DNA from: Actinomycetota bacterium
GTDB lineage: Bacteria; Actinomycetota; Acidimicrobiia; Spongiisociales; UBA4744
Direction of reading: 5' to 3'
DNA length: 52,946 nucleotides
NCBI GenBank assembly: GCA_013152275.1
Contig: JAADGS010000099.1
Span: 1-52,946, forward strand
The position numbers and the translations under genes are program-made. Below the pieces are notes generated by a model. That model made no database searches. It was not told the origin of the DNA and was given only the letters and a program-made list of their open reading frames with translations. Below, in pieces: positions 27,738 to 36,220 of this stretch (position 1 is the first letter of the stretch; each line of letters starts with the position of its first letter).

Positions 27738-27860
27738 CCCGTTCCGGCTTCGTGGTACTCCCCCCCGGGAAGCGGAGCGACCGTTGGGGAAAGAAGTGGT
27801 CGCTGCGCTCCCTGGGGAGAGATATGGTCGCTCCGCCCACCGAGGGGGAAACTCCCGAGA
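27738..27860. repeat. GC-rich palindromic repeat cluster, copy B
   Basis: It begins TTCCGGCTTCGTGGTACT followed by a C run, closely matching the opening at about 6326, and continues with hairpin units such as GTGGTCGCTGCGCTCCC and ATGGTCGCTCCGCCC separated by G runs. It ends at the stop codon of glnA and so may end glnA transcription. Just upstream, AAGGGGACAGGTTCCC (about 27671-27686) is a further short near-palindrome of a kind often scattered in bacterial intergenic DNA. Confidence 0.5.
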
Positions 27861-27863
27861 CTC

Positions 27864-29288
27864 TCAGATGTCGTAGTAGAGGTGGAACTCGTACGGGTGC
27901 GGCCGCAAACGCATCACATCGACCTCGCTGGAGCGCTTGTAGGCGATCCACGTATCGATGAGATCCTGGGTGAACACCTCACCTTTGAGCAGGAAGTCGT
28001 GGTCGGCTTCCAGCGCGTCGAGCGCCTCCTCGAGGCTCCCCGGCACCGACGGCAGGTTCGACAGTTCCTCCGGCGGCAGGTCGTAGATGTCCTTGTCGAC
28101 GGGCGGTGGCGGTTCGATCCGATTCTGAATCCCGTCGAGACCGGCCATGAGCATCGCCGAGAAGGCCAGGTACGGGTTCGCCGACGGATCTGGACAGCGA
28201 AACTCCAGGCGCTTCGCAGCCGGCTTCTGTGAATACAACGGGATGCGCACGGCCGCCGACCGGTTCCTCTGGCTGTACACCAGGTTCACCGGTGCTTCAA
28301 AACCGGGCACGAGTCGCCGGTAGGAGTTCGTTGTCGGTGCGGCAAACGCGAGCACGGCGTCCGCATGCTTCAAGAGGCCTCCGATGTACCAGCGAGCCAT
28401 GTCGGACAGGCCTGCGTAACCGCTTTCGTCGTAGAACAGCGGCTTGCCGTCGGTCCACAGCGACTGGTGGGTGTGCATCCCGGAACCGTTGTCCTCGAAG
28501 ATCGGTTTCGGCATGAACGTCACCGTCTTGCCTGCTCTCCATGCAGTGTTCTTGACGAGGTACTTGAACAGCGTCACGTGGTCCGCCTGCTTCAGAAGCG
28601 TCTCGTAGCGGATATCGATCTCGGCCTGGCCGGCGGTGCCGACCTCGTGGTGATGGACCTCGACCTCGATGCCGGCGTCTTCGAGCAGGGCGGTCATCTC
28701 CGAACGGAGATCCTGGAAATGATCCGTCGGCGGCACCGGGAAGTAACCCTCCTTGTAGCCGGGTTTGTAGCCGAGGTTGCCACCTGCTTCATCTGCCCCG
28801 CTGTTCCAGGCCCCCTCCACCGAGTTGACCTCGTAGAACGCGGAATGCTGATTCTGATCGAACCGGACGGAGTCGAAGATGTAGAACTCGGCTTCCGGAC
28901 CCCAGTAAGACGTCTCGGCGATCCCCGTACCCTGCAGATAGGCCTCGGCCTTCTTGGCGATATAGCGAGGGTCGCGATCGTACGGCTCACCGGTGGTCGG
29001 ATCATGCACGAAGCAGTAGATCAACAGCGTCTTGTGCGCCATGAACGGATCGGGCGTCGCCGTCGAAGCATCGGGAAGCAGCAACATGTCCGATTCCTGG
29101 ATCTCCCGAAAACCGCGGATCGAGGACCCGTCGAACCCGAATCCCTCTTCGAAGCCGGCTTCGGTCAACGTCCCGGCCGGAATCGTGAAGTGCTGCACCT
29201 GGCCTGGCAGGTCACAGAAACGAAGGTCGACGAACTCGAATCCTTCTTCTTCGATGTATCGGATCAACTCGCTGGGCGCGTACGACAA
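27864..29288 (-). CDS. glnA: Glutamine synthetase type I
   Basis: A 474-residue enzyme that makes glutamine from glutamate, ammonia and ATP. The start is TTG 29288 with GGAGGAG five bases upstream. Signatures are [12 protein letters not shown], the metal and substrate region ([27 protein letters not shown]), [18 protein letters not shown], and [19 protein letters not shown]. The adenylylation-site tyrosine lies in DIYDLPPEE, so control by GlnE is possible. It diverges from glnA2 across a 144-base region that carries a GlnR-like half-site array. Confidence 0.96.
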
Positions 29289-29330
29289 GAATGCTCCTCC
29301 TGGAAGACATGTGGTTTATACCCGAGGAGC

Positions 29331-29380
29331 GTTTCGCGTCAGTTGCCGGAATGTGAACGCCGTGTTTCATCTCTCGTTTC
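29331..29380. promoter_or_regulatory. 11-bp-phased half-site array between glnA and glnA2
   Basis: GTTTC at 29331, GTTGC at 29342, GTGAA at 29353, GTTTC at 29364 and GTTTC at 29376 repeat at 11, 11, 11 and 12 bp. On the minus strand these read GAAAC, GAAAC, TTCAC, GCAAC, GAAAC, close to the gTnAC-n6-GaAAC half-sites reported for actinobacterial GlnR. The array ends 43 bases from the glnA start and 53 from the glnA2 start. The GlnR-like gene is downstream of glnA2. Confidence 0.6.
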
Positions 29381-29432
29381 GAGTCGATGCCCGGCCCCGG
29401 CTCCGCTACCTTCTGTAGAGAAAGGAGCCCCA

Positions 29433-30758
29433 ATGGAGAGACAAGCCGAATACGTGCTCCGAACCGTCGAGGAACGAGGGATCCGTTTCATCCGCCTGTG
29501 GTTCACGGATGTACAGGGATTCCTGAAGTCGGTCGCGATCAATCCCGCCGAACTGGAGGTCGCCTTCTCCGAGGGAATGACCTTCGACGGGTCGGCCATC
29601 GACGGATACGCGCGCGTTCAAGAAGCCGACATGATTGCCAAGCCCGATCCTTCCACGTTTCAAATCATCCCGTGGCGGCCCGAACAGCAGGTCGCACGGA
29701 TGTTCTGCGATATCCTCACTCCGAGCGGTGAGCCCTTCGATGGCGACCCACGCTGGGTCTTGAAACGTAACCTTCGTCGGGCGGCCGACCTGGGATTCAC
29801 GTTCTTCGTCGGACCCGAATTGGAGTGGTTCTATTTCAAAGACTCGGGTCCGAACCCGCAAGTGCTCGACCGGGGCGGCTATTTCGACCTGACGCCGCTC
29901 GATGTGGCCCAGGAGTACCGGCGCACGACGATCAACGCGCTCGAGCAACTCGGCATCCCCGTCGAATCGTCGCACCACGAGGTCGCTCCCAGTCAGCACG
30001 AGATCGACCTGCGCTACACCGACGCGCTCACGATGGCGGACAACGTGATGACGTATCGGCTCGCCGTCAAGGAGGTCGCCATCGAGCACGGCATCTACGC
30101 GACGTTCATGCCCAAGCCCTTGGCCAACCACGACGGCAACGGAATGCACGTGCACCTGTCGCTCTTCGAGGGAGACCGCAACGCGTTCTACGAGGCCGGA
30201 TCCGACCTGGGCCTTTCGAAGGTTGCCCAGAGCTTCATCGCCGGGCTCATCAAGCACGGCCCGGAGATCACCGGGGTGACCAACCAATGGGTCAACTCGT
30301 ACAAGCGCCTCGTATCCGGATTCGACGCCCCCCTCTACCTGACGTGGGCCCGCAACAACCAGTCCGCGTTGGTGAGGGTGCCGTCGGTCAAGGCGGGCAA
30401 ACAGGCGTCGACGCGTGTCGAATACCGGGCACCGGACGCCGCATGCAACCCGTACATGGCCTTCTCGGTGTTGCTGGCAGCCGGTCTGACAGGAATCGAG
30501 AACGCATACGAGCTCTCCCCAGAGATGCCCCGGAACGTATACGACCTGACCAAGGCCGAGCGTGCGGCCGCGGACATAGGGACACTCCCGTCGAACCTGT
30601 CGGAAGCCCTTGACCTGATGGAGGACTCCGAGCTGGTGGCCGAGGCGCTCGGCGAGCACATGTTCGGTTGGTTCCTCAAGAACAAGCGCAAAGAGTGGGA
30701 CCGCTACCAACGTCACGTCTCACAGTTCGAGCTCGAGGAGTACCTCCCGATTCTCTGA
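29433..30758 (+). CDS. glnA2: Glutamine synthetase, GlnA2 type
   Basis: A 441-residue GS-I protein starting at ATG 29433 behind AAAGGAG. It has TFDGSAIDGYARVQEADM, FFVGPELEWFYF, ESSHHEVAPSQHEIDLRY, KPLANHDGNGMHVHLSLF and EYRAPDAACNPYMAFSVL, so the catalytic core is complete. It lacks a clear NLYDLPPEE adenylylation segment; NVYDLTKAE lies there instead, with the tyrosine kept but the context changed, as in GlnA2 proteins. Its main substrate could be glutamate or another gamma-glutamyl acceptor such as a polyamine. The next gene overlaps by one base. Confidence 0.9.
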   Translation: MERQAEYVLRTVEERGIRFIRLWFTDVQGFLKSVAINPAELEVAFSEGMTFDGSAIDGYARVQEADMIAKPDPSTFQIIPWRPEQQVARMFCDILTPSGEPFDGDPRWVLKRNLRRAADLGFTFFVGPELEWFYFKDSGPNPQVLDRGGYFDLTPLDVAQEYRRTTINALEQLGIPVESSHHEVAPSQHEIDLRYTDALTMADNVMTYRLAVKEVAIEHGIYATFMPKPLANHDGNGMHVHLSLFEGDRNAFYEAGSDLGLSKVAQSFIAGLIKHGPEITGVTNQWVNSYKRLVSGFDAPLYLTWARNNQSALVRVPSVKAGKQASTRVEYRAPDAACNPYMAFSVLLAAGLTGIENAYELSPEMPRNVYDLTKAERAAADIGTLPSNLSEALDLMEDSELVAEALGEHMFGWFLKNKRKEWDRYQRHVSQFELEEYLPIL

Positions 30759-31384
30759 TGCTGATTGCCGTCATCCCCCCCAAGCCGTCCAAGGGCCTCA
30801 CCGAGGCTCTCCTCGTCGCGGGCGTCACGTGGCGCCCGGCGCACGACCCAAGCGACGACTGGGACGAGGCCGGCGTGCTCCTCGTCGAATTGGGTGATGA
30901 CCCGGAGGGCCACCTCGCCTCGGCACGACGAATCTACGAGCGGTCGGGACTGCCGGCGGTCGCCGTGGCCGATCGTGCCGCCGCCGCGACGTTGGAGACC
31001 GCAGGGTTCCTCATGGACTTCATGTTCAACCCGCCGGATCCCGTGGAGCTGCGACTACGGCTGCGAAGACTGGCCGACGGGGCCGACGAGACCGAGGTGC
31101 TGCGCTTCAAGGATCTCGAGATGAACACGGCCACGTATCAGGCGCGCCTCGACGGAGTCCCCCTCGACATGGCCTACATGGAGTACGAGCTGCTCCGCTT
31201 CTTCGTCCAGCATCCGGGGAGGGTGTGGAGTCGTGAACAGCTTCTCTCGCGAGTGTGGGGGTATGACTACTTTGGCGGGGCACGCACCGTCGATGTCCAC
31301 GTGCGACGGCTCCGGGCGAAACTGGGCGAGCAGCGTGCCCGCTGGATCTCCACGGTGCGGTCGGTCGGCTACCGGTTCGGTTGA
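30758..31384 (+). CDS. GlnR-like OmpR-family transcriptional regulator
   Basis: A 208-residue protein whose ATG shares a base with the glnA2 stop (TGATG). The C-terminal winged helix (YEVLRF-like MEYELLRFFVQHPGRVWSRE, VWGYDYFGGARTVDVHVR, VRSVGYRFG) is very like GlnR. The N-terminal receiver-like domain is degenerate: the usual phosphorylated aspartate position reads LLVELGDD, with glutamate, and no obvious phosphorylation pocket is seen, as expected for GlnR, which acts without a kinase. It is likely the nitrogen regulator of the flanking glutamine synthetase genes. The alternative is another orphan OmpR-type regulator. Confidence 0.8.
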   Translation: MLIAVIPPKPSKGLTEALLVAGVTWRPAHDPSDDWDEAGVLLVELGDDPEGHLASARRIYERSGLPAVAVADRAAAATLETAGFLMDFMFNPPDPVELRLRLRRLADGADETEVLRFKDLEMNTATYQARLDGVPLDMAYMEYELLRFFVQHPGRVWSREQLLSRVWGYDYFGGARTVDVHVRRLRAKLGEQRARWISTVRSVGYRFG

Positions 31385-31441
31385 CCGTTCTCGTGACGCT
31401 TCAGGGGAATAATCCCCACCAAGCGTCACAAGAACGGTCAA
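31381..31441. repeat. Dispersed palindrome, copy 1
   Basis: A 61-base palindrome with 21-base arms (one mismatch): TTGACCGTTCTCGTGACGCT at the left, its complement at the right, and an inner GGGGAATAATCCCC. It spans the convergent ends of the GlnR-like gene and the NTPase-propeller gene and supplies both stop codons (TGA 31382-31384 on plus, 31440-31438 on minus). It is likely a bidirectional terminator here. Related copies lie at 36164-36214 and 43706-43756. Confidence 0.85.
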
Positions 31442-34400
31442 CGACACTCCGGCGGGTTCGAACAGCCGATCGCCACGATCGTGCCGCTCAGATCGCCAAC
31501 GATGATTGCACCGTCCAGGATCGCAGGCCGGCTGACAACCCGCCCATCCAACAAGTACCTCCAGAGCTCTTCGTGCGTCTCGAGATCGACCGCGTAGAGA
31601 TACGGCTCGTCGGTCGTGAAGTAGAGCACACCATCGCCGACGATCGGCCATCCGACTCTTCCTTCGAGAGGTGAGACCGTGCTTGTGCTCGGGAACTGCC
31701 AGAGCTGCCGGCGCGACACCGCATCCCACGCCTGGATGAAATTGTCGTTGGCGATGTACAGGACACCGTCCGCGTACGCGGGTGGCGACGTAACCGTGAT
31801 GCTGAGCAGGATGCCGGCTTCCGGGTTGCACGATCCGACCTGGACCGCATACAGATTCTGGGCATCCCGCGCGGGAATGAACACCGTGTCACCTGCGATC
31901 ACCGGCGGAGAAACGATCGTGTCTCCGGTATCGAAGCACTTTCTGGCCTCGCCCGTCAACGCATCGACAGCCCACAAGATCCCTCCCTCCGTGGGAACGT
32001 ACAGGATGCCATCGGCCGCGGCAGACGCCGCCCTGATCGGACTGGCGAGGTCGACATGCCAGCGCTCGTCGAATGGATCTGCCGTATCGGCTGCGTACAG
32101 GACACCCCGATTCGTCCCGAAGTAGACGGTGTCACCGAGCACGAGCGGCGCGCTGACAATCTCTCCGTCTACGACACCTTCCGTCGGAAACTGCCATACC
32201 TGCGCAGTCCGCTTGCGGGCATCGCTGCGAATCCGAAGCACACCGTCCTTGCTCCCGTAGTAGACCCGCATCCCACTGGTCGGATCGAGTCCGCTCATAC
32301 TCGTCAGGAATGCCAGAGTGGGCGGACCGATGATTCCATCTCCGGCGGAGTCCTCGATCCACAACGGCGGAACCCCGGAGGGCATCGCGATGCCGTAGAG
32401 ACTGCCGTCCTCGCTCCCGAAGATCACGCTCTCGCCGAACACGGCGGGCGACGATTCGATCCTGCCGCCGGCGGTGTATTTCCAGTAGTAGCCGTCGGCC
32501 GAACGCACACCTGTCCGTCTCGATGCGCCGGTATTGTGCGCGAGCCGTTCCTGATCGTCCAGATCGCCCGCGAACGTCCACTGGCCGACGACTGTGTTCT
32601 TGGCCGGAGGTCCGAGTTCGGTCTCCCAAATCTCCGGTGGACGAGTCGTCGTCGTGGTCGTTGGGGCGATCACGACAGGGGCGACCGTCGTCGTCGTTGG
32701 CGGCGGATTGACGACCCTGGCGAGGAACCCGCCACCGAGACCGATCGCCGTCACGGCGACCACGGCGGCGGCAACGCGAATCGAAGTCCATCGGAAGGGG
32801 CGTTTGCGCCGCTTCAAACCTCTCGCACGCCGTTGTGCCGGGCTGACCAGCCTGCCTTCGACACCGAGGCCTGCGTCTTGGAGTGCCTGCTCCAACTCCA
32901 CCGAGAGTCGCTCGGATGCCTCGTGGTACGCCTCGTCCCCGACTTCGGGAGCTGCGAGCGCTGCTGCAATCTCCGGAAGCGCCTGCCATGCCTCCCGCCA
33001 CTCTTCGGGGATGTGCGCTGCCATCGCCTTGACCGATGTGATCACCGCTGCAGCTCCCGGCTTGTTCCACAAGCGCCCCGCTTCAGCGGCTTCTGCGGCG
33101 ACCCCCGCCACTCCGAGTTGATCCGCGAGTGCCATCGCCTCGGCTGCCAGAGACGGGTCCCGTTCGGCTTTCGATCGAACGATGAGCAGCCGCGCCGCAG
33201 CGAGATACCACTCCGACTGCAGCAATTCGTCGGTGAGATCGAACGCTTCATCGGCATTCCATGCGTCTCCACTCGCCACACCGATGGCGAGCTGCACAAC
33301 TCGAATCCGCAGACGCCATCTGCGCCCATCGACACCCTTCGGACAGCTTTCGAGTGCCGCCTGCGCCTCTTCTTTCGCCTCTGCCGTCCGGCCCACACCG
33401 AACAGGGCTCTGGCCCGCAGGTATCGGGCGCTGTTCTCCCAGGCAGGTAGCTGCTGGAGAACCAATGCCAGCGTTTTGTCGGCAGCTTCGAGTGCCGTGT
33501 CCCATGCACCGAAACGAATCGCGCCCTCGGCAAGCGCCATGTGCGCCAGGAAGACGGGGCCGGCACTTACGTCGGCATGCCGGATCGACCGGCGCCTCAC
33601 AGCGAGAGCCCGGTCTGGGCGCCCGGCCATGAACAGTGCTCGAGACCACCACGCTTCCCTGTCCGCCATCAAAGCCGGTCCACCGGTGCATCTGGCCTCG
33701 TCGACGAGTCTCGCGAAACCGATCTCTGCGTCGCGCGCTCTCCCTTGGTCGAAGGCCACCCACGCCTCGTTGTAGCGCCCTCGCTGCTGCTGCTGTGCCG
33801 TCCCGTGGGAAGAGAGAATCTTCAACCCTTTGTCGAGTTCTGCATCGGCCTCCTGAGCGAATCCGAGTCGGGCGAGGGTTCTCGCGTGCAGCGTCAAAAG
33901 AGATCCGAGCATTCCGAACTCACCGGCGAGGATGGCTTCCAGAAGCCCTTCCGCCACCAGACGCTCGGCCTCTTGGGGAAGCTGCCGGTCGTCCGCAACC
34001 TGCCCTGCGTGGCCGAGCGCGTGGACGCGGTCGACACCAGACAACCGGTCTGCGGCCACCGTGAGGTCCTCCGCCGCCAGTTCCGACCAACCGGCAAGCC
34101 GGTAGCAGGTAGCTCGCGCCAGGCGGAGTTTTCCCTCCAGTTCGGGGTCTTCCGTGCCGGATGCCTCGTATGCACGAAGCGCACCATCGAGCAACGGATA
34201 CGCCTCCGCGAGATGCTGCCGATCCGCTCGCTCCAGGCCTGCGCGGGCCAGCAGGGGAAGTGCGTCTCCCCACCGGGCAGCATCGAGGTAATAGCCGCCG
34301 ACGAGACCGGGATCCCGCTCTGCGATTCCCGTACGAACGCCGGCATCGGCAAGAGCGCCATACAGTGCGGCTGTCCGCACAGAGCCCAGATACTCCCCGA

Positions 34401-36163: not shown

Positions 36164-36214
36164 CGTTCTCGTGACGCTTCAAGGGAATAATCCCCGTCAA
36201 CCGTCACGAGAACG
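36164..36214. repeat. Dispersed palindrome, copy 2
   Basis: A 51-base palindrome with perfect 13-base arms, CGTTCTCGTGACG and CGTCACGAGAACG, around GGGAATAATCCCC. It sits between two genes of the same direction, 7 bases after the stop of the aldehyde dehydrogenase gene and 19 bases before the DUF1028 start. In this place it could end the ALDH transcript or lie in the DUF1028 leader. Confidence 0.85.
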
Positions 36215-36220
36215 GGAGGT

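Follow-up and report, generated by a model that had tools for sequence, protein, structure and literature searches.

Two glutamine synthetase genes face away from each other in the window analysed here (the whole stretch of 52,946 nucleotides), and the 144-bp gap between glnA1 on the minus strand and glnA2 on the plus strand holds a series of short repeats. The question raised by this locus is which regulator reads these repeats, and for which of the genes. In the window sequence, four 5-mers lie in one 11-bp register, GTTTC (29331-29335), GTTGC (29342-29346), GTGAA (29353-29357) and GTTTC (29364-29368), with steps of 11, 11 and 11 bp, and an extra GTTTC (29376-29380) follows at a step of 12 from the preceding 5-mer. 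An earlier, sequence-only reading had described five 5-mers repeating every 11 (last 12) bases, GAAAC, GAAAC, TTCAC, GCAAC and GAAAC on the minus strand, a description that the sequence confirms. The features of the locus are as follows.

27864-29288, minus strand: glnA1, type I glutamine synthetase, 474 aa (NCBIfam TIGR00653, 670 bits against a cut-off of 429)
29315-29320, minus strand: TATAAA, -10-like hexamer of glnA1, 10 bp from the array
29331-29368, minus strand: predicted four-site GlnR-type operator array GAAAC-n6-TTCAC-n6-GCAAC-n6-GAAAC, reading towards glnA1 (sequence, conservation and co-occurrence with glnR)
29364-29368, minus strand: half-site 1, GAAAC, distal to glnA1 (sequence and alignment)
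29353-29357, minus strand: half-site 2, TTCAC (sequence and alignment)
29342-29346, minus strand: half-site 3, GCAAC, which would sit at the -35 of glnA1, judging from the -10-like hexamer
29331-29335, minus strand: half-site 4, GAAAC, proximal to glnA1 (sequence and alignment)
29376-29380, minus strand: fifth 5-mer after a 12-bp step, common to the same-genus relative only and probably outside the operator
29407-29412, plus strand: TACCTT, -10-like hexamer of the glnA2-glnR promoter, 38 bp from the array
29433-30758, plus strand: glnA2, second type I glutamine synthetase-like gene, 441 aa (NCBIfam TIGR00653, 479 bits against a cut-off of 429)
30758-31384, plus strand: glnR-like gene for an OmpR-type regulator, 208 aa (structure-database matches, tree and fold)

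The gene overlapping glnA2 had been called GlnR-like, and this was upheld. The overlap is one base (TGATG), and the best solved-structure matches of its product are actinomycete GlnR proteins (8hig, 127 bits; 8hih, 123 bits; 8hml, 113 bits), the next being PhoB with 78 bits. The recognition segment RTVDVHVRRLRAKLG is the same in the window regulator, 8hig and 8hih. In a tree of 28 proteins, a split with support of 100/99 separated 20 GlnR-like proteins of this study and 2 known GlnR proteins from the remaining 6 OmpR-type proteins, namely RegX3, MtrA and four paralogues from the window's own genome; the branch order within the GlnR side is weakly resolved. With the predicted structure (mean pLDDT 87, pTM 0.54), a fold search placed the M. 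tuberculosis GlnR transcription complex 8hih (8hih_N) at rank 1, and the predicted DNA-binding domain was superposed on 8hig_A with an rmsd of 1.2 Å. Full-length superposition was poor (TM 0.45). KdpE, PhoP and other OmpR-type structures ranked close behind, and the fold alone therefore fails to single out GlnR. By sequence and tree, the protein is of the GlnR type. In its receiver domain the window protein carries Glu at the Asp-50 position; on a weak domain alignment, 21 Glu and 5 Asp (L041, L059, L060, L064 and L075) were counted in 26 rows from the order.

Some further elements of the locus can be recorded here. In GlnA2 (29433-30758) and in part of the order's GlnA2 proteins, the Glu of the NSYKRLxxGxEAP motif is replaced by Asp, and GlnA2 activity may differ from that of an ordinary glutamine synthetase. 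Just after glnR lies a palindrome (31380-31442) with 31-nt arms, 84% complementary and 1 nt apart. It belongs to a dispersed family sharing about 53 bp, with at least 74 matches on both strands and at least 40 places in the genome (40 of 62 candidates scored), including another copy within the window (36164-36215), and looks like a REP- or MITE-like element. Downstream of glnA1 there is an inverted repeat (27759-27849) with 24-nt arms, 83% complementary and 43 nt apart.

Concerning the array itself, a half-site matrix, built from 16 arrays including the window's own and hence partly circular, gave the window array a score of 37.5; the runner-up in the window reached 6.3, and the maximum in simulated sequence was 22.7 (12.0 million positions). 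The degenerate pattern KHMAY n6 x4, picked after the arrays had been seen, has a single occurrence in the 3.07-Mb genome, which is the array, while the reversed control gave 0. A model of 28 arrays, one of which is the window array, scored it at 39.0 bits in its own genome (E 2.4e-9). These 28 arrays from the window's order align free of gaps, each with four half-sites of 5 bp and spacers of 6 bp and with no indel, and an A is invariant at the 4th position of all four half-sites in 28/28. In a review, the 4th-position A is given as the irreplaceable base for GlnR (PMC10704036). A typical GlnR target carries two boxes and hence four such half-sites. As for the a-site/b-site pattern that had been proposed, the 11-bp register and the 4th-position A were borne out; the strict a-b-a-b order, gTnAc / GaAAc, is departed from by the window half-sites, which run GAAAC, TTCAC, GCAAC, GAAAC. 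That order is no requirement for a GlnR site, since published sites off the strict order include GTnAC-n6-GTnAC in S. venezuelae and GAAAC-n6-GTATC in S. avermitilis, both in table 2 of the same review (PMC10704036). In 39 Acidimicrobiia arrays, the half-sites read along the coding strand of glnA1 or glnII.

The locus was compared across 59 genomes, the window's own included, of which 46 carried the regulator (called at E <= 1e-30) and 13 did not; the surroundings of the regulator were taken from 45 relatives, grouped in families designated f1 to f8. glnA2 lies directly upstream of glnR in 45/45 of these loci, although as a partial gene in four (L036, L039 and L074 at contig ends, L076 not at a contig end). 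A divergent glnA1 is found upstream in 15 relatives (f1, f4 and f8), with a four-site array in 15/15. A comparison in relatives had been called for, and loss of the array among those keeping the three genes was seen in 0/15. In f3, glnA1 is located elsewhere in six relatives, and the array was found upstream of it in 6/6, with scores of 23.9 to 37.5, the weak one of 23.9 being that of L081; beside the glnA2-glnR loci of these six relatives there was no array. Another gene takes the divergent place in f2 and f5, where the array is retained in 13 loci, and in f7, where the genes run glnII-glnA2-glnR, three loci (L059, L060 and L075) have the array ahead of glnII. GlnII was named by NCBIfam in L048, L058 and L059 (f7) and by tblastn for two named f5 records, the remaining glnII assignments in f2, f5 and f7 being made from position and sequence. 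The fetched stretches of L065 and L071 (f3), L061 and L076 (f5), L074 and L077 (f7), and L036 and L039 (contig ends) contained no array. The strong array of G002 lies before its glnA1 (L080), and the assignment of arrays to genes leaves out the strong arrays of G034, G039, G048 and G053. The array travels with the main glutamine synthetase gene, glnA1 or glnII. Because it stays when glnII replaces glnA1, the operator outlives the enzyme.

The presence of the array was then set against that of glnR. The array model drew its 28 arrays from 28 of the 46 regulator genomes, and matches with E < 0.002, a cut set after the list had been seen, were counted as strong. A strong array was present in 42/46 genomes with the regulator and 0/13 without it (Fisher p 6e-10), genomes that are not independent, as 8/13 of those lacking GlnR belong to f6 and three are <80% complete. 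The number of independent losses is accordingly few (f6, G026, G058 and perhaps f7). Since 28 of the 46 genomes had fed the model, the fair count is that with the model-building genomes left out, 14/18 against 0/13 (one-sided p about 1e-5, hand-worked). The regulator genomes without a strong match were G013, G038, G042 and G044, and the array of G013 was found by the half-site matrix. The best GlnR-less genomes gave partial matches with E values of 0.0047 (G030) and 0.014 (G043). No glnA2 orthologue was identified in the 13 GlnR-less genomes (three of them <80% complete): 8 have only glutamine synthetase genes of <=38% identity, and 5 gave no match at E <= 1e-20. The idea of one array per genome was dropped. 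The glutamine synthetase array model gives at most one strong match in each genome, but it is too strict and misses arrays before amtB that the half-site matrix finds.

For amtB, 49 places were located in the 59 genomes and 45 were examined, leaving out the second copies of G008, G022, G036 and G040. An array at a shuffle p <= 0.01 was present in 30/35 loci with the regulator and 0/10 loci (nine genomes) without it (Fisher p 9e-7). The amtB coding strand outscored the other strand in 35/35 loci of GlnR carriers, as against 4/10 of non-carriers. Control registers of 9, 10, 12 and 13 bp gave a median best score of 5.1, compared with 20.8 for 11 bp; a control register exceeded the 11-bp score at L207, L215 and L218. 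The amtB of the window's own genome (L206, G000:C78:11950-13164) has six sites in one 11-bp register, GTAAC, GTAAC, GTCGC, GTAAC, GCAAT and GGAAC, the third of which is degenerate, and a -10-like hexamer, TTAGAT, 10 bp after them. Six sites are also described for S. coelicolor amtB (PMC5826061).

Conservation, co-occurrence with the regulator gene and the half-sites at amtB strongly support the GlnR-type operator that had been proposed, and we regard 29331-29368 as most probably a four-site GlnR activator operator of glnA1. As relatives devoid of the regulator are also devoid of the sites, the array would very likely be a switch for ammonia assimilation in this little-studied bacterial group. 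From the array, its conservation and orientation, the glnR co-occurrence, the amtB half-sites and the distance to the -10-like hexamer, all computed here, we infer binding, activation and a nitrogen signal in the following form. The GlnR-family OmpR-type regulator (30758-31384) would bind the four half-sites, phased at 11 bp, in a head-to-tail arrangement along a single face of the DNA. Bound GlnR would replace the -35 contact, with half-site 3 at about -35 and half-site 4 10 bp from the -10-like hexamer, and would activate glnA1 under nitrogen shortage. Exactly 10 bp past the array, 12/12 arrays of f1 and f8 and 3/6 of f3 have a hexamer that starts with TA. In f2, f4, f5 and f7, the hexamer at 10 bp is a poor -10 (GACTCT, CATAGT), with A2 and T6 kept in 19/21. 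The placement of half-site 3 resembles that of the a2 site of S. coelicolor amtB, reported at about -35 (PMC5826061).

The sequence-only reading had gone further, letting one regulator control both glutamine synthetase genes and itself. For glnA1 this is the probable reading; for glnA2-glnR it draws on a spacing and cannot be general. On the glnA2 side, a TANNNT is found 37-39 bp from the array in 17/19 loci of f1, f2 and f8, the exceptions being L053, at 27 bp or one 11-bp period less, and L068, at 131 bp. Apart from L068, the loci (18) have no other TANNNT in the gap. (L068 carries an insertion, L068:1926-2081, between the array and the glnA2 promoter, with a hairpin recognized by eye.) The identity of the array-glnA2 spacer between families is 0.31, against 0.29 expected from composition (18 loci), so that the distance is kept without the sequence. 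The 37-39 bp spacing suggests two-sided control in these families, and we lean towards the view that, from upstream and at a fixed helical phase, this bound array controls the divergent glnA2-glnR promoter as well, and hence glnR.

A real possibility, if one we find less convincing, is that the array serves only glnA1 (or glnII), its constant distance from the glnA2-glnR promoter being no more than a by-product of how compact the intergenic space is. In the six f3 relatives the array accompanies glnA1 rather than glnA2-glnR, in the three f7 loci it stands before glnII, and its boxes read along the glnA1 strand, all of which would agree with service to one side. The distances to the glnA2 hexamer in f4 and f5 would also agree: they are 48, 95, 95, 119, 119, 119, 120, 198, 206 and 206 bp, that is, 95 to 206 bp in 9/10 loci. 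A by-product of compactness accounts less readily for a distance held at 37-39 bp in 17/19 loci, with one exception shorter by just an 11-bp period, over a spacer whose sequence is not kept. Taking into account the f3 loci without an array and the distances of >=95 bp in 9/10 of the f4 and f5 loci, control of glnA2-glnR by the array cannot be general, and dual control can hold only in families whose glnA2-glnR promoter lies close by. Control of glnA1 is much better supported than that of glnA2-glnR.

We consider it unlikely that GlnR at the array represses glnA2-glnR, in negative autoregulation, while activating glnA1. The shared operator and the fixed spacing would suit such an arrangement, and GlnR can reportedly repress some genes (PMC4140684). 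However, the array stops about 15 bp short of the would-be glnA2 -35, on the upstream side. The core promoter is left uncovered, and repression from the array would thus need another mechanism.

There is very little to recommend an operator with five working sites. A fifth GTTTC occurs in the window and, at an equal offset, in the same-genus relative L035, but it is 1 bp off register, and the other 14 relatives that share the gene order, L037 and L038 of the window's family among them, lack it at that offset. As this 5-mer is unconserved beyond the genus, we rejected it as part of the operator, which we describe as four-site rather than five-site. Of the five sites originally proposed, then, four are conserved across the order, and the fifth was found only in L035 among 15 relatives.

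Least probable of all, to the point of being scarcely credible, is that the array is read by another OmpR-type regulator, one of the PhoP, RegX3 or MtrA type with boxes that likewise recur at 11-bp intervals; TTCAC resembles a PhoP unit, and the window's own genome holds 7 other OmpR-type matches. PhoP and GlnR sites do overlap at glnA, glnII and amtB in Streptomyces (PMC10704036), but relatives of the OmpR-type paralogue L002 persist in 13/13 GlnR-less genomes with a strong array in 0/13, which indicates that loss of the array follows GlnR, and 0/10 amtB loci in nine GlnR-less genomes have an array at p <= 0.05.

Beyond Acidimicrobiia, named genomes were scanned with GlnA2 and the best 80 of 470 loci were taken, 5 of them titled Acidimicrobiia or Acidimicrobiaceae; the regulator protein as query gave no match against named genomes. 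Among the best 80 of 470 loci, four-site arrays were found in 20 outside the Acidimicrobiia titles (L202, L163, L196, L167, L181, L144, L187, L175, L171, L161, L140, L160, L165, L184, L159, L168, L166, L177, L172 and L139) and in none of the fetched DNA of the other 55. The titles of the 20 include 14 of Dehalococcoidia or a subgroup, three of Chloroflexi/Chloroflexota and one of Aquicultor, and those assigned by title to Thermodesulfovibrionales and Deltaproteobacteria may represent mislabelled bins. GTAAC-n6-TTAAC-n6-GTAAT-n6-GAAAC is an example from the Dehalococcoidia/Chloroflexota/Aquicultor arrays. Upstream and on the same strand, 13/20 records have a GlnR-like gene, at 28 to 125 bp in 8 and at 1.5 to 1.8 kb in 5; amtB follows the array in 15/20, and a TANNNT stands exactly 10 bp after it in 20/20. 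The best solved-structure matches of the GlnR-like protein of L202 are 8hig (118 bits) and 8hih (114 bits), with RegX3 at 102 bits. These arrays are identified by the half-site matrix and the -10 spacing and not by the stricter 28-array model R1, with which the best records were L167 (14.0 bits, E 0.038) and L145 (E 0.064). In L137, L138, L142, L143, L146, L190, L192 and L200, where a GlnR-like gene is situated just after GlnA2, no half-site-matrix score of >=14 was obtained. The Dehalococcoidia clusters combine a GlnR-like gene, a four-site array 10 bp from a TANNNT, and amtB-glnK-glnA.

The directly adjoining glnA2 and glnR invite a more speculative thought. Their adjacency in 45/45 loci, together with their joint absence from 13 genomes, fits an operon lost as a whole, and also a sensing pair. 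In the latter case glnA2 and glnR would form one sensing unit, GlnA2 reporting nitrogen status to GlnR by direct contact, much as in Firmicutes a feedback-inhibited glutamine synthetase signals to an unrelated GlnR. Such a unit would predate Actinomycetota, as the GlnR-like gene, the array and amtB-glnK-glnA occur in clusters in Dehalococcoidia too. We hold this to be improbable. The input signal of actinomycete GlnR is described as unknown in PMC10704036, and the overlapping pair with its joint absence may point to where that signal might be sought.

By these results, GlnR control of nitrogen assimilation would reach beyond the well-studied actinomycetes into Acidimicrobiia, where its targets (glnA1 or glnII, and amtB) can be listed from sequence. 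The regulator would predate Actinomycetota, given the GlnR-like genes close to arrays with this geometry in Dehalococcoidia. Our literature searches found nothing on GlnR in Acidimicrobiia and, by titles and abstract openings, no GlnR control in Dehalococcoidia or Chloroflexota. As far as these searches show, a conserved four-site GlnR operator is new here in taxon and gene setting, not in kind.

Among known systems, the pho boxes of PhoB/PhoP are likewise 11-bp direct repeats that are read by a winged-helix OmpR-type regulator and end about 10 bp from the -10. The window array differs from them in half-site sequence and in regulator, and its presence tracks GlnR and not the PhoP-like paralogue. 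The GlnR of Firmicutes is of the MerR type. The Firmicutes glnRA operon also has a gene called glnR beside a glutamine synthetase gene, but of a regulator family unrelated to the OmpR type of the window. Its GlnR is a repressor, with glutamine synthetase as the sensor (PMC9249791). The GlnR proteins of M. tuberculosis and Saccharopolyspora erythraea (8hih, 8hig and 8hml) rank at the top by sequence, with 8hih first by fold and the recognition segment identical; the window regulator differs from them in its diverged receiver domain, with Glu at the Asp-50 position, and in the overlap of its gene with glnA2. Compared with the GlnR boxes of S. coelicolor glnA, glnII and amtB (gTnAc-n6-GaAAc), the window half-sites lack strict a-b-a-b alternation, and the array is located in the class Acidimicrobiia, between two divergent glutamine synthetase genes, one of which overlaps glnR. 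PMC10704036, citing Shi et al. 2023, describes a GlnR activation complex in which each of four sites carries a DNA-binding domain, the four being arranged head to tail; the window array at glnA1 fits this arrangement.
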